A stretch of DNA of 64,000 bases from Peptococcaceae bacterium CEB3. Its GTDB lineage: Bacteria; Bacillota; Desulfitobacteriia; Desulfitobacteriales; Desulfitobacteriaceae. The position numbers and the translations under genes are program-made. Below are positions 37,827 to 43,781 of the stretch, piece by piece (position 1 is the stretch's first letter; each line of letters begins with the position of its first letter). The notes under the pieces were generated by a model, which was not told the DNA's origin, ran no database searches, and saw only the letters and a program-made list of their open reading frames with translations. The stretch is taken from the NCBI GenBank assembly GCA_001029295.1, contig LDXJ01000044.1:1-64000 (forward strand). The letters are read 5' to 3'.

Positions 37827-37997
37827 AACCAGCCGGGACTCGCTGAGATTCAGTAGATCTGTAAAAGGAACTGAGATCCACTAAAACTAACGGAAATTCG
37901 TGAGGTCTGGCAGGCCTTCTGACGGTGTTGGGGATAAAAATATTTCCCGCGTGAAAAACTAACTCTGTTTTAAGCTTTTCGCATGGGAGGTAAAATG

Positions 37998-38885
37998 ATG
38001 GGCCATATCCAATCGCAAGGGGAACTGCTCAAAGACATAAAGGACCTAATCCTCACGCATTTCGGCGAGAGTGGTCAAGGGATTCATGTTGAAGTAAAAG
38101 GGGATAAGGTTTCCCTTTGGGGTACTGTGGACACTTTGGCGGAGAAGGATTTTATCGCTCAGCGTATCAGCCGGATCGAGGGTGTGAAGGAATTGGATAA
38201 CTCCCTGACGGTGGCTGATGACGGCAAGATCAGTGATAAAGAAATTGAGGAATGGATCCGGCAACGGTTAGCCGGGTCAGGACATAAGGAGGTCTCCGGC
38301 TTAGGCTGCCGAGTGAGCCACGGAATCGTCACCCTTTTGGGCCACGTGGAGACCCGGAGTAATGAACGTTTGGCCAGGAAAATCGCTTCGCAGATTCGCG
38401 GGGTCAAAGAGGTTCGCAGTGAAATTCAGCTCAAAGGAAAAAGCGTCGAAGACGCGGAGTTGGTCAACCGGGTGGAAAACGCGTTGGCGGCTTCCCCTTG
38501 GGTAAATGCTCAGGAAATTAAAACAGCGGCCAGTAACGGTTTGGTTACTTTAACGGGTCTGGTGAACACTCCGGACGAGGTGGAGTGGGCGGTGGAAACA
38601 GCTTACCAGGTTGCGGGAGTGAAAGCGGTCGTCAGTGAGGTTCTGTCCCGTCATCATTCCCAGGGGGAAGATTTGCGTTTGACCGAGCAGCTTGTCAACG
38701 CTTTGGGGCTTAATCGTCTTAATTCGGCCCAAGTACACGCTTATGTGCAGGGCGGGATTGCTTTTCTTTCGGGAGAAGTGTACTCTCCGGAGGACCGGGA
38801 ACGTGCCGAGATTCTTTGCCAAGGAATTTCCGGTATCGACAATGTCGACAACAGTATCCGGGTAGCCGCTCATTGGAGCAAGTAA
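37998..38885 (+). CDS. Protein with four BON domains
   Basis: This 295-residue protein is made of four successive BON (OsmY/nodulation) repeats at about residues 8-72, 80-145, 153-215 and 222-292. Each has the IKVEVKDGKVTLSGxV-like core followed by a GVKEVxN/S turn (for example VEVKGDKVSLWGTVDT and GLVTLTGLVNTPDEVEW). There is no signal peptide or membrane span, so it would stay cytoplasmic. BON domains bind phospholipid or hydrophobic ligands and often appear in osmotic or envelope stress proteins. The start ATG 37998 follows GGGAGG; ATG 37995 is equivalent. Confidence 0.88.
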   Translation: MGHIQSQGELLKDIKDLILTHFGESGQGIHVEVKGDKVSLWGTVDTLAEKDFIAQRISRIEGVKELDNSLTVADDGKISDKEIEEWIRQRLAGSGHKEVSGLGCRVSHGIVTLLGHVETRSNERLARKIASQIRGVKEVRSEIQLKGKSVEDAELVNRVENALAASPWVNAQEIKTAASNGLVTLTGLVNTPDEVEWAVETAYQVAGVKAVVSEVLSRHHSQGEDLRLTEQLVNALGLNRLNSAQVHAYVQGGIAFLSGEVYSPEDRERAEILCQGISGIDNVDNSIRVAAHWSK

Positions 38886-38943: not shown

Positions 38944-38956
38944 GAACATAAGTTTG
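38944..38956 (+). promoter_or_regulatory. LexA (SOS) box 1
   Basis: GAACATAAGTTTG fits the Gram-positive LexA/DinR consensus CGAACNNNNGTTYG, lacking only the first C. It lies just downstream of the -10 box, where repressor would block transcription. Confidence 0.75.
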
Positions 38957-38964
38957 ATGTATGA

Positions 38965-38977
38965 GAACCTAAGTTTG
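38965..38977 (+). promoter_or_regulatory. LexA (SOS) box 2
   Basis: GAACCTAAGTTTG is a second match to GAACNNNNGTTY. It is exactly 21 bases (two helical turns) after box 1, so both would sit on the same face of the DNA. Confidence 0.72.
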
Positions 38978-39028: not shown

Positions 39029-40213
39029 GTGCATTGGCTGCTCTATTTGGCTTTTAAAAGTCCGGAACAGGGGGAGTTTAAGGATGTCTGTTCCGGTGAG
39101 GATTCCGAACGGTGTTCTTGTCCGCCGGGGTTAAGGAGAGAACTTGCCGGTTCCTCTTTAATTAAGGCACAGGAATTTTCCCCGGGGATAGAAAAGGGTC
39201 TGAATGAATACTGGCTGGAATTACGAGGTCCGGATACAGTTTTTAAGGTTATGCGGGAATTAAAAAAAGGGCCGCGGGTAATGGCACTTGCACCGAATAA
39301 GTGGTTGGCAAAACAATTGGCTCTCAACCTCAATCTTTTAAATTACCCCGCACAGGTGGAAATCGGCTCTTCATGGTATCTCTGGCGGGGGAGAAAGGTC
39401 TTTTCCCAGGGCCGGGAACTCGCGCTGGTATGTTTTTCCCCTAACCGCCACAAGGAAGATTTTTATCCGGATCCGGCTTCAGCCCGTCAAGCCTGGCAGG
39501 CTTGGGCCGAGAGCACCATCTGGCATGCTTTGCCCGTTCGGGGGCTTTGGTTTTTAACCCCCAAAGCCGTTGACGAACTGGAAAGACTGGGTTTTAACAA
39601 CCTCGGGCAGCTATTGAGCTTGGGGGATGATTTCCTTGGGCGAATGACGGGTAATCCGCACTTGCCAGCCTATTTAAAAGGAGGAGAGAATCTTCCCGGG
39701 CTTGAGAACAATTATCCCGAGCGGAGTTTGCGCCTTGCCGCGGACTTGCGAGATCCGGACAGTCAAGATGAGGCGGACAGTATCCGTCTGCAAGCTTCCG
39801 TGGAATTGCTTTCCTCCCACCTGGCCGCTCAATTAGCACAAAGGCAGCAGGGATGTCTGCGTCTGAGGTTGACCGTTTCCCATGCGGGAGAGAGGCTGAA
39901 TGGAGAGAGGAGCTTTTCTCCCCCCCAATATACCCCGGAGGCACTGAGGGAGAACATAACCATACTCTTGCGCACTTTGCCCTTTCCCAGCTATAGCGAA
40001 GTTTACCTGGAAGCGGAAGGGCTGCAAGCCGTAAGTTATCCTCAGTATGCTTTGTTTGCGGAACAGGCCCGTTTGGCGCAGGATCCGCATTTGACAGCGT
40101 TGGTCTCGCGCTTTTCGGGTGTACTGCAACGGGGAACGGAATTTTCCCGCCGGGAAAAAATGCTCACCCATTACGATCCTTGGCGTTTCAGCAGGCAAGG
40201 TTTTCGGGGTTGA
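39029..40213 (+). CDS. Degenerate Y-family polymerase (ImuB-like), catalytic palm missing
   Basis: This 394-residue protein starts at GTG 39029 behind GGGGGG. Its middle (GLWFLTPKAVDELERLGFNNLGQLLSL) resembles the helix-hairpin-helix thumb of Y-family polymerases. The following part (CLRLRLTVSHAGERLNGERSF...LRENITILLRTLPFPSYSEVYLEAEGL) resembles the little finger. The N-terminal palm motifs with the catalytic Asp and Asp-Glu are absent. ImuB proteins are inactive Y-family relatives that bridge the beta clamp and a DnaE2 polymerase in mutasomes; the dnaE gene directly downstream and the LexA boxes upstream support that role. Sequence similarity is weak, so the identity is inferred chiefly from these features together. 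Confidence 0.55.
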   Translation: MHWLLYLAFKSPEQGEFKDVCSGEDSERCSCPPGLRRELAGSSLIKAQEFSPGIEKGLNEYWLELRGPDTVFKVMRELKKGPRVMALAPNKWLAKQLALNLNLLNYPAQVEIGSSWYLWRGRKVFSQGRELALVCFSPNRHKEDFYPDPASARQAWQAWAESTIWHALPVRGLWFLTPKAVDELERLGFNNLGQLLSLGDDFLGRMTGNPHLPAYLKGGENLPGLENNYPERSLRLAADLRDPDSQDEADSIRLQASVELLSSHLAAQLAQRQQGCLRLRLTVSHAGERLNGERSFSPPQYTPEALRENITILLRTLPFPSYSEVYLEAEGLQAVSYPQYALFAEQARLAQDPHLTALVSRFSGVLQRGTEFSRREKMLTHYDPWRFSRQGFRG

Positions 40214-40397
40214 TGTTCAAGCGGCTCAGGCGGAACCTGCAGAAATACCCAAAGGCAAATATGCCGGTACATGGGTAGGTCGGGTAGCGGTACGGGATTC
40301 TCGGTATTTCAATATCAAGAATTTGACTGGGAAGCGAATAGCGCAGGATATCTCTTATAAACACATGAGAAAGCTAAGGGGGAGGAAAACTAAGGGG

Positions 40398-43300
40398 GTG
40401 TCCGGCTTGGATTTTGTCCATCTGCATGTACACTCCCCATATTCTTTTTTGGCTGGGGGGAGCCATCTCCACAATTTAGTGCGAAAAGCTAAGGAGTTGG
40501 GGTTCGGGGCGTTAGCTCTGACAGATTGGCACAGCCTGGCCGGGGTAGCCCGCTTTCAGGAATTGATGCTGGGAGCCGGACTCAAACCTATTTTCGGGGC
40601 GGAGGTGGCAGTCCGTTCACGAGAGTTGGTCCGGGAAAGCCGACAGGTACCTGTTGCGGGTACTCAGTATAGTTTCCGCGCAGACGGAGAAGGCGGGTTC
40701 GGTTCGCGTGCCGCGTATGACCCGTATGACCCGTATGACCCGGGAGCAGGCGGTCAGCGGGGCTTTACTCCGGACGACAGGTTCGCTGTCGGCGCAAATG
40801 GCCCGTGTTGTTCCTCTCTGTTCGGGCCAAGGCGGAGTTCGAAGGGTCAGGAGGGTCAGGAAAGTTACCACCTGGTCCTTTTGGCGCGAAATGCGGAAGG
40901 TTACCGGAACTTAAGCCGGTTGCTTACAGAGAGTCACCTGGATCACCCGCGGGGTGAGCCCTTGGTCGAATGGGAAAGTCTAAAAAAGTTCAGCTCGGGA
41001 TTATACGCCCTTTCGGGTTGCCGGCAAGGGGAAGTCCCTTTTTGGCTTTTGCAGGGGAAATACGAGCAGGCCAGGGCGTCAGCGGAAGCTTACCGAGAAC
41101 TTTTTGACGGCTATTTTTACCTGGAGGTCCAGGGGGACCGCCTTCCCGGTTGGAAATCCCTTTGGATGGGGATGCAAAGACTTCACCAAGAGTTGGGGAT
41201 TTCTTTGGTGGCGACGAATAATGTCCATTATGCCGCAAAAGAGGATTTCCAGGTCTTTGATCTGCTGACCTGCCTGCGCAAGAAGGTCAGGTTGGACGAA
41301 GCGGTGGCAGGGCGGTATCTGAACGCCGAAAATTATCTCAAAACCCCCGCGGAAATGCTGACGGCCTGTGGGGAAAGGCCGGAAATACTGGAGGAGAGTG
41401 CAAGAATTGCCGCGGACTGCAATGTCCGTTTAGGAGAGGAATCTTTTTTCCCTCAGTACCCTTTGCCCGGGGTCGAAGCCCGGGCGGGATTCTTAAGGGA
41501 GTTAACCTGGCAGGGGGCACGGCAGCGCTACGGACGGATCACGCCGGAGATTCAGCGGCGCCTCGAATATGAACTTGGGGTTATCAATCAACTGGAATTC
41601 GCCGACTATTTTCTGGTGGTCTGGGACGCTTTGCAGTTCGCCCGCCGCAAGGGAATCCGTTTTGCCGGGCGGGGTTCGGCAGCCGACAGTGCGGTGGCTT
41701 ACTGCCTGAAGATTACGGAGGTGGATGCCATCGGCAGGGGGCTGTTGTTCGAACGCTTTCTCAGTTTGGAACGCGCCGAGAAACCGGACATCGATGTGGA
41801 TTTCGATGCCCGTTACCGCGATCAGGTGGCGGCTTATTTCAGCGAGCGCTATGGGCGCGATCAGGTGGCGGCTGTCGGGACATTCCAAACTTTCCGGGCG
41901 CGCTCGGCGATTCGGGAAGTGGGGAAAGCTTTTGGCCTGCCGGAGGCGGAATTAGACGATTTGGCCAAACGTATGCCCTGGATAAATGCGGATGAAATTC
42001 AGGCGGCGATGTCTTTTTTCCCCGAATTGAAAGTTCTGCCGCCGGAGAGACAGAAAAACCTGCAAACCCTCTTGGCGTATTGCGCCCGGATTTCCGAGTT
42101 TCCGAAGTTTTTGGGCATGCATCTGGGCGGGATCGTGGTAAGCCGGGAACCGGTGGCAGACATTGTTCCTGTGCAATGGTCGGGGAAAGGGACCAGGGTG
42201 ATTCAAGCGGATAAACGGGATATTGAAGAGCTGGGACTGTTTAAAATTGATCTCCTCTCTTTGCGCACCTTATCGGTGGTGGACGACAGTATCCGCGATA
42301 TTCAGGCTTCAGACCACACGTTCCGGGAGGAGACGACGGTCGGGGATCACGAGGAGGTTTATGCCCGCCTGCGTACGGGTGAGACCATGGGGATTTTCCA
42401 GCTGGAGAGCCCGGCCCAAAGAGCCTTACAAAGCCGTTTGGGAGCCGAACGCTTTGAAGATGTTGTGGCCAGCGTGGCTTTGATTCGCCCCGGTCCGGTG
42501 AAGGGGGATATGGTTGAGCCCTATGTTGCCAGGCGCCAGGGTTTGGCTCCCGTGGCTTACCTGCACCCGGCCTTGGAGGCGATTTTGCGCAAAACGTATG
42601 GTGTCGTTTTATTTCAGGAGCAGGCTATTGAAATCGTGCAGAAAGTGGCGGGCTTTTCTTTGGGAGAGGCGGATCGCTTGCGCCGCGTGATGAGCCATGT
42701 CCGTTCTCAGGAGGAAATGCGGGAAATCGGGCGGATGTTTGAAAAACGGGCTATCGAAAGAGGGGTCGAAAAGAAAGTGGCGGAGACGATCTTCTCTTAT
42801 CTCGTTGGTTACGCGGGCTACGGTTTTTGCGAAGCCCACGCGGCGGCTTTTGCCACGACCGCCTTGAAGACCGCTTATTTGGTTGAGCACCATCCGGCGG
42901 AATTTTTCGCGGCTCTGCTCAATCACCAGCCGATGGGTTTTTATCCGGCGCATACCTTGGCGTTGGAGGCGAAACGGCGGGGAGTGCGGCTTTGGCCCCT
43001 GGATCTGCAAAAGAGCGTTTGGAATTTCCGAGTGGAAAACGGAGGGATCAGGACAGGGTTCAGGCAGTTGAAAAATATGAGCCGGGAGGTGGCTTCCCGC
43101 ATTGAACAGGAGCGCGACAAACAGGAGTTCCGCACTTGGCAGGATGCGGTCGCCAGGTGCGGGCTTTCCGACCCGATTTTGGAGAACCTCGTTTTGGCAG
43201 GTGCTTTTGAAACGCTCTTCCCCAATCGCAAGGCCCTGCTCTGGGAGATCCGTCAAGGCCGGGGTCGGGGGCTCTTTGCGGAAGAAAATTTCCTTGGGCC

Positions 43301-43781
43301 TGAGTACCCGGATTTTACCCTTCTGGAAAAAACTGAGTGGGAGTACAGGCTTTTAAAGCTCAACACAACCCACCGTTTGATGGAGATTTGGCGTCAGGTC
43401 TACGCCTGGCAGGGGTTTGCTACGACAAAAACCGTCGGCGGGCTGCCCGCGGGCGCGCGGGTGAGCCTCATAGGGCATGTTTTGCGTCCCCATCGCCCGC
43501 CGACCCGCAGCGGGCAAGTGGTGGTTTTCTTTACCTTGGAAGATGAGTTCGGTTTTTTGGATGTGACGCTTTTCGAACGGGATTATCAAAAATGCGGTCA
43601 GTGGCTTTTTGGTTCACGGAGTGGGCCTCGCCTGGTCTCGGGGGTTTTGCAGAGGAGAGGTCAGGGGGTGTCCTTGATTGCGGAGGCAGTGCTCCCTCCT
43701 CCGGGAGACAGCCGGCATCGGCCTGGGGAGACCAAGTATCTGCCTGGAGGCACCGGGCCCGATACTCTCGTTTCTCAGTGA
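40398..43781 (+). CDS. dnaE: DNA polymerase III alpha subunit, DnaE/DnaE2 type
   Basis: This C-family DNA polymerase is about 1127 residues. The N-terminal PHP domain begins FVHLHVHSPYSFLAGGS. The palm has the catalytic PDIDVDFDARYR motif, with the third acidic residue expected further on. The thumb/fingers segment is GRGSAADSAVAYCLKITEVD and SYLVGYAGYGFCEAHAAAFA, and the C-terminus carries an OB fold (VSLIGHVLRPHRPPTRSGQ...). It is probably the error-prone partner of the ImuB-like protein 184 bases upstream. The start is GTG 40398 or TTG 40407 (AAGGGGG eight bases ahead of the latter); the frame is open further upstream but that part is not conserved. A roughly 75-residue low-complexity insert (about 40630-40860, with DPYDPYDP) interrupts the PHP domain. 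Confidence 0.9.
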   Translation: MSGLDFVHLHVHSPYSFLAGGSHLHNLVRKAKELGFGALALTDWHSLAGVARFQELMLGAGLKPIFGAEVAVRSRELVRESRQVPVAGTQYSFRADGEGGFGSRAAYDPYDPYDPGAGGQRGFTPDDRFAVGANGPCCSSLFGPRRSSKGQEGQESYHLVLLARNAEGYRNLSRLLTESHLDHPRGEPLVEWESLKKFSSGLYALSGCRQGEVPFWLLQGKYEQARASAEAYRELFDGYFYLEVQGDRLPGWKSLWMGMQRLHQELGISLVATNNVHYAAKEDFQVFDLLTCLRKKVRLDEAVAGRYLNAENYLKTPAEMLTACGERPEILEESARIAADCNVRLGEESFFPQYPLPGVEARAGFLRELTWQGARQRYGRITPEIQRRLEYELGVINQLEFADYFLVVWDALQFARRKGIRFAGRGSAADSAVAYCLKITEVDAIGRGLLFERFLSLERAEKPDIDVDFDARYRDQVAAYFSERYGRDQVAAVGTFQTFRARSAIREVGKAFGLPEAELDDLAKRMPWINADEIQAAMSFFPELKVLPPERQKNLQTLLAYCARISEFPKFLGMHLGGIVVSREPVADIVPVQWSGKGTRVIQADKRDIEELGLFKIDLLSLRTLSVVDDSIRDIQASDHTFREETTVGDHEEVYARLRTGETMGIFQLESPAQRALQSRLGAERFEDVVASVALIRPGPVKGDMVEPYVARRQGLAPVAYLHPALEAILRKTYGVVLFQEQAIEIVQKVAGFSLGEADRLRRVMSHVRSQEEMREIGRMFEKRAIERGVEKKVAETIFSYLVGYAGYGFCEAHAAAFATTALKTAYLVEHHPAEFFAALLNHQPMGFYPAHTLALEAKRRGVRLWPLDLQKSVWNFRVENGGIRTGFRQLKNMSREVASRIEQERDKQEFRTWQDAVARCGLSDPILENLVLAGAFETLFPNRKALLWEIRQGRGRGLFAEENFLGPEYPDFTLLEKTEWEYRLLKLNTTHRLMEIWRQVYAWQGFATTKTVGGLPAGARVSLIGHVLRPHRPPTRSGQVVVFFTLEDEFGFLDVTLFERDYQKCGQWLFGSRSGPRLVSGVLQRRGQGVSLIAEAVLPPPGDSRHRPGETKYLPGGTGPDTLVSQ

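Follow-up and report, generated by a model that had tools for sequence, protein, structure and literature searches.

A predicted inactive, fingers-less Y-family polymerase relative encoded beside a DnaE2-type polymerase in Peptococcaceae bacterium CEB3

The locus and the anatomy of iPolY

The stretch analysed, 64 kb of contig C44 of Peptococcaceae bacterium CEB3 (hereafter the window), belongs to a 5.3-Mb genome from the genus of Acididesulfobacillus acetoxydans. ORF reading revealed at 39029-40213, on the forward strand, an intact frame of 394 codons with a GTG start, encoding an inactive Y-family polymerase relative (iPolY), and downstream of it a dnaE gene (Table 1). The iPolY gene is real and under purifying selection: it is conserved in three further genomes at 88, 51, and 48% identity, and comparison with A. 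acetoxydans yields a dN/dS of 0.24 for the whole gene and 0.11 for the palm remnant (0.14 for dnaE), with 0.29 for the iPolY pair of loci L009 and L010. L009 shares with the window the gene order PHP protein, BON-domain protein, iPolY, DnaE, and YdjM; L012, from another family of the same order, shares the BON protein, iPolY, DnaE, and YdjM, with extra genes between BON and iPolY. The window BON gene (37983-38885) encodes a four-BON-domain protein that also lies 5' of the iPolY locus in the close relatives examined.

Table 1. Features of the iPolY-dnaE2 locus (window positions)
Feature	Position	Strand	Basis
SOS (LexA/DinR) box-like site 1, GAACATAAGTTT in GGAACATAAGTTTGA	38944..38955	+	sequence pattern
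SOS box-like site 2, GAACCTAAGTTT	38965..38976	+	sequence pattern; 21 bp downstream of site 1
Fingers-less inactive Y-family polymerase relative (iPolY), 394 aa	39029..40213	+	alignment, hhalign, dN/dS, Foldseek
Palm strand beta-1 (WLLYLAFK), A for catalytic D8	39035..39058	+	MAFFT with DinB and 30+ iPolYs; AF2 strand E4-10 (low confidence)
Fingers-deletion site, ~33-residue linker in place of DinB 11-77	39059..39157	+	alignment
Palm remnant, residues 44-100: SPGIEKGLNEYWLEL hairpin, helix, VMALAPNKWLAK	39158..39328	+	hhalign
Thumb (HhH) domain, residues 161-232	39509..39724	+	hhalign
Little-finger domain, residues 233-338	39725..40042	+	hhalign
Predicted beta-clamp-binding motif QYALF, residues 339-343	40043..40057	+	conserved position in 36/36 aligned iPolYs
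Conserved C-terminal tail SRREKMLTHYDPWRF	40145..40189	+	invariant in close relatives, near-invariant family-wide
iPolY/dnaE2 spacer, 184 bp	40214..40397	+	single copy in genome; open in dnaE frame
DnaE2-type error-prone polymerase, 1127 aa, canonical Q clamp motif lost (GLFA)	40398..43781	+	NCBIfam, tree, motif

The best Pfam and NCBIfam matches of the protein are weak (IMS_C, E = 0.11; DinB, E = 0.09) and do not reveal the fold by themselves; likewise, PDB sequences searched with a profile of four reduced proteins returned nothing, and full-length orthologues were needed. We compared the fingers-less family, with the window protein as master, by hhalign to aligned DinBs of E. coli and clostridia, with 20 column shuffles as control. 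Residues 35-98 match the second palm segment, DinB 78-153 (probability 95.9, E = 6e-9), and residues 44-105 match DinB 91-153 (97.3, E = 2e-11; shuffles at most 0.7%). The thumb (residues 161-232 to DinB 170-236; 98.2, E = 3e-14) and the little finger (residues 233-345 to DinB 252-349; 91, E = 1e-6) follow in order, and shuffled controls reached 6.2% at most over all segments. MAFFT further aligned residues 3-10 with palm strand 1. Of the palm, the protein retains strand beta-1 and the (E)P hairpin with the helix after it, as well as the NKxLAK strand/helix; the only DinB stretch without counterpart, in alignments with DinB and with full-length orthologues, is the fingers (DinB ~11-77). The missing part is revealed by the L012 orthologue, which retains the full length (430-438 aa) and carries active-site mutations (VYLESFY, AENE). 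Y-family polymerases carry their fingers as an insertion that separates palm strand 1 from the remaining palm, so that absence of this segment alone indicates excision of one domain rather than loss of the palm. A 47-aa in-frame indel, seen as 47 extra residues in the sister species, falls at the end of the linker that replaces the fingers, as expected of a loose linker.

The first-pass annotation had described a reduced, dead Y-family relative adjoining a dnaE gene, with thumb- and little-finger-like regions but no catalytic palm. The reduced dead relative, its DnaE neighbour, and both C-terminal domains are borne out, whereas a degenerate palm is kept and the deletion has removed the fingers. 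Of the DinB catalytic residues D8, D103, and E104, whose full set marks an active Y-family polymerase, the first two are replaced (A8, N59) and the third persists as E60, which is not conserved in the closest relatives (ENG/EDG in L009 and L010). The alignments place the protein in the Y-family superfamily, its palm, thumb, and little finger being homologous to those of DinB, with the DinB-like fingers lost. A fold unrelated to this family was not seen either. Single-sequence AF2 modelling was useless (pLDDT 36) and the four-sequence model is of low confidence (pLDDT 46), although its strands and helices come in the expected order; every row listed by Foldseek for the latter is a Y-family polymerase, at low TM-scores (0.19-0.31) that, together with the model quality, make this result count as support only.

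C-terminal to the little finger lies the predicted clamp motif, of the type Q-x-x-L/I/M/F-F or QDLF in all 36 aligned iPolYs, little-finger-only ones included; the first-pass view of a pure adaptor linking DnaE to the clamp is plausible. The tail SRREKMLTHYDPWRF has no counterpart in DinB. In the window protein, no RecA-NT motif is detectable (profile score p = 0.49); scores are significant in L128, L134, L136, L005, L012, L117, L125, and L126.

Partner genes and SOS boxes

The best NCBIfam match of the window DnaE is the error-prone polymerase PRK05672 (808 bits, under its cut-off). The iPolY-linked DnaEs make up a single clade in our tree (100/99), which falls with the DnaE2 references (100/100); both DnaE1 sequences, that of E. 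coli and that of this genome, lie elsewhere. Pairing with a DnaE, as first annotated, can be refined to a predicted DnaE2; we assign it at that level, above the published subgroups DnaE2X and DnaE2B. Where E. coli DnaE has its clamp motif (QADMF, 920), the DnaE1 of this genome reads QISFF and the window DnaE shows a deletion plus GLFA; three iPolY-linked DnaEs carry QVLF there. Loss of the motif in DnaE and its retention in 36/36 iPolYs are complementary, which supports an adaptor role for iPolY. Besides PolC and DnaE1, the same genome encodes another DnaE at C52 (G000:C52:24392-25144; L142:5070-8066), a very divergent protein of 999 aa on a long branch that has no equivalent among the DnaE matches of the sister genome. 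A low-complexity insertion (YDPYDPYDP...; ~40610-40880) makes the PHP domain of the window DnaE longer than in relatives; in ImuB systems, PHP is the predicted ImuB-C contact.

The ImuB-C domain (PF20114), which defines ImuB, was not found in the 394-aa chain; separate genes encode it instead. A protein that would work like ImuB is hence not filed as one, contrary to its initial designation as an ImuB form, and is predicted to be the iPolY component of a system with a split ImuB. Syntenic loci in G003, G039, and G041 carry the ImuB-C gene between iPolY and dnaE. The window's genome holds ImuB-C genes unlinked to the operon, at C63, C18, and C34, each with GAACN4GTTC within 90 bp upstream; the C63 gene has an A. 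acetoxydans counterpart. The C18 and C34 genes are extra copies (G000:C18:12416-12619 and G000:C34:5495-5704; L140, L141), the latter near an integrase-like gene. Between iPolY and dnaE2, where relatives hold the ImuB-C gene, the A. acetoxydans spacer measures 12 bp, and in the 184-bp spacer of the window we saw no ImuB-C remnant or similarity. In the window's genus, ImuB-C has moved out of the operon. No ImuA occurs among the neighbouring genes read, and only one RecA-type gene was found genome-wide at E<=1e-20.

Upstream of iPolY, the window carries two tandem box-like sites, GGAACATAAGTTTGA and AGAACCTAAGTTTGA, which share their form with the box of the genome's own lexA (GCGAACATCTGTTTGC). 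Both strands of the 64-kb window contain no GAAC-N4-GTTTGA beyond the two in this tandem. A similar site is conserved upstream of iPolY in L008, L009, and L010, as a tandem pair in L008 (5715, 5736). Each window box has one mismatch, and the match is borderline taken alone (p = 0.055); across 34 loci, the best upstream LexA-box match beats random places in its own locus in 24 (p<0.05; 1.7 expected), with many perfect CGAACN4GTTCG among them. From sequence, an upstream LexA box, the mark of the SOS regulon, is predicted for the window operon and for most of the others.

Reduction of iPolY across the phylum

Of 398 genomes of the phylum, 31 yielded relatives with the profile of four reduced proteins; no relative was found in viral contigs, and none for the window protein on plasmids. 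Among 30 loci, 27 hold iPolY together with a standalone ImuB-C ORF (77-142 aa) and DnaE; of the remaining three, one is cut off by a contig edge, and L116 and L131 show neither partner in the stretch examined. We then grouped 52 distinct iPolYs, those from a second sampling of one class of the phylum included, according to how far beta-1 lies from the palm hairpin, which yielded 16 full, 33 fingers-less, and 3 little-finger-only proteins. The window protein shares the boundaries of its fingers excision with 32 other iPolYs. On a DnaE tree of 31 loci, presence or absence of fingers needs at least four changes, or seven losses if regain is disallowed, both approximate because some of the deep branches lack resolution; on the same tree, the full L114 is a close sister of the fingers-less L132. 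Loss of the fingers, as judged from these alignments, is common (33/52) and recurrent.

The three most reduced proteins (L119:5702-6262, L129:43-573, L133:5325-5855; 177-187 aa) consist of little finger, clamp motif, and tail, without thumb or palm. They keep the SRRE.ML..YDPWR tail and the iPolY position before ImuB-C and DnaE2, and no separate palm/thumb gene was found upstream of those in L119 and L133. These series raise the possibility that the dead Y-family subunit of Bacillota DnaE2 mutasomes has been stripped domain by domain, repeatedly and independently, first of its fingers and then of all but little finger, clamp motif, and tail, a scenario for and against which we see the balance as even.

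Proposed role, alternatives, and known systems

We consider it probable that iPolY is an inactive Y-family scaffold subunit of an SOS-induced DnaE2 error-prone polymerase and a putative tether between clamp and DnaE2, a non-catalytic clamp adaptor being the most likely function. LexA would repress the operon until DNA damage. Once made, iPolY would be unable to copy DNA, because its fingers are deleted from the palm and its catalytic acids are gone; its QYALF motif would bind the sliding clamp, its thumb and tail would bind DnaE2, and the separately encoded ImuB-C protein, assumed to be used in trans in the window's genome, would aid the scaffold. DnaE2, whose own strong clamp motif is lost, could thereby be brought to damaged DNA, with a presumably mutagenic output.

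Other readings fare less well against the same data. That iPolY is a clamp-binding regulator apart from DnaE2, displacing replicative polymerases at stalled forks, for instance, or recruiting RecA, would suit its strong clamp motif, the RecA-NT-like stretch kept in some relatives, and the lack of DnaE and ImuB-C in the stretches examined of L116 and L131; yet DnaE2 adjoins iPolY in nearly every locus and its clamp motif is lost in complementary fashion, which renders this possibility unlikely. Loss of the fingers, absence of ImuB-C from the operon, and low-complexity indels in the linker and the DnaE PHP domain could also portray a pseudogene on its way out, but four genomes keep the frame open, dN/dS is low, above all in the palm remnant, and the fingers-less form recurs phylum-wide with intact operons, so decay is very improbable.

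A truly palm-less ImuB, made of thumb and little finger only, would explain why Pfam and NCBIfam return weak matches to these two domains and none to IMS (palm/fingers). Shuffle-controlled alignment of the palm hairpin-helix-strand, the syntenic full-length orthologues that identify the missing part, and the absent ImuB-C domain leave it hardly any room. Residual polymerase or nucleotidyl transferase activity is extremely improbable, since E60, the one acidic residue of the catalytic set still present, is not conserved, the equivalents of D8 and D103 are lost, and there are no fingers to hold a nucleotide.

A scaffold subunit of DnaE2 would belong to a system of known type. Timinskas and Venclovas (PMC6511836; 2019) reported operons of inactive PolY, standalone ImuB-C, and DnaE2 in which RecA replaces ImuA, and a 2026 survey (PMC12926913) describes this group as DnaE2X-iPolY-ImuB-C-RecA, a possible precursor of ImuA-ImuB-DnaE2. 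Such modules (Kyrpidia tusciae-type; PMC6511836, PMC12926913) resemble the window locus in the inactive PolY by DnaE2, the standalone ImuB-C partner, the PolC-containing Bacillota hosts, the clamp motif on PolY, and the predicted SOS control; the window protein differs in its missing fingers and undetectable RecA-NT, and its genus in the location of ImuB-C outside the operon. ImuB of ImuA-ImuB-DnaE2 mutasomes is likewise a dead Y-family DnaE2 scaffold with a clamp motif, as described in the same survey, but the window protein lacks ImuB-C in its chain, has no ImuA seen nearby, and keeps the palm core. The survey's account of ImuB1/ImuB2, which often carry deletions and in their most reduced members comprise thumb, little finger, and ImuB-C, also qualifies the earlier statement that other ImuB proteins keep a mutated palm, which does not hold in general. 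The DinB2-type iPolYs of Streptomyces and Geobacter, comparable by description, accompany DnaE2B without ImuA and are presented as inactive PolYs without ImuB-C (PMC12926913). With DinB/Pol IV (E. coli; the genome's own at G000:C55), iPolY shares the second palm half, thumb, little finger, and C-terminal clamp motif, and it differs from it in lacking fingers and catalytic acids and in its SRREKML..DPWRF tail. DnaE2 was found to be extremely rare in PolC genomes in a 2013 survey (PMC3919608).

What appears to be undescribed is the repeatedly evolved, stripped-down form: fingers-less or little-finger-only iPolYs are not mentioned in the main text of PMC12926913. The common and recurrent loss of fingers in this family, and three relatives reduced to little finger and tail, thus appear to be new. 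Together, these reduced forms amount to a set of natural deletions in a mutasome scaffold and would show which domains are required for DnaE2 recruitment by a dead Y-family polymerase. The thumb is the essential part implied by present models of how ImuB contacts DnaE2; if the domain-by-domain stripping is true, the essential core would instead be little finger plus tail. With the little-finger-only members, what the thumb contributes can be tested directly. To our knowledge, DnaE2 systems in bacteria with PolC, DnaE1, and DnaE2 are experimentally uncharacterised so far. Two little-finger-only loci, L119 and L133, have no recognisable CGAAC box, and XRE/S24-peptidase (LexA-like) genes diverge from both (L119:4807-5592, reverse strand, checked with Pfam; L133:6166-6798, forward strand).
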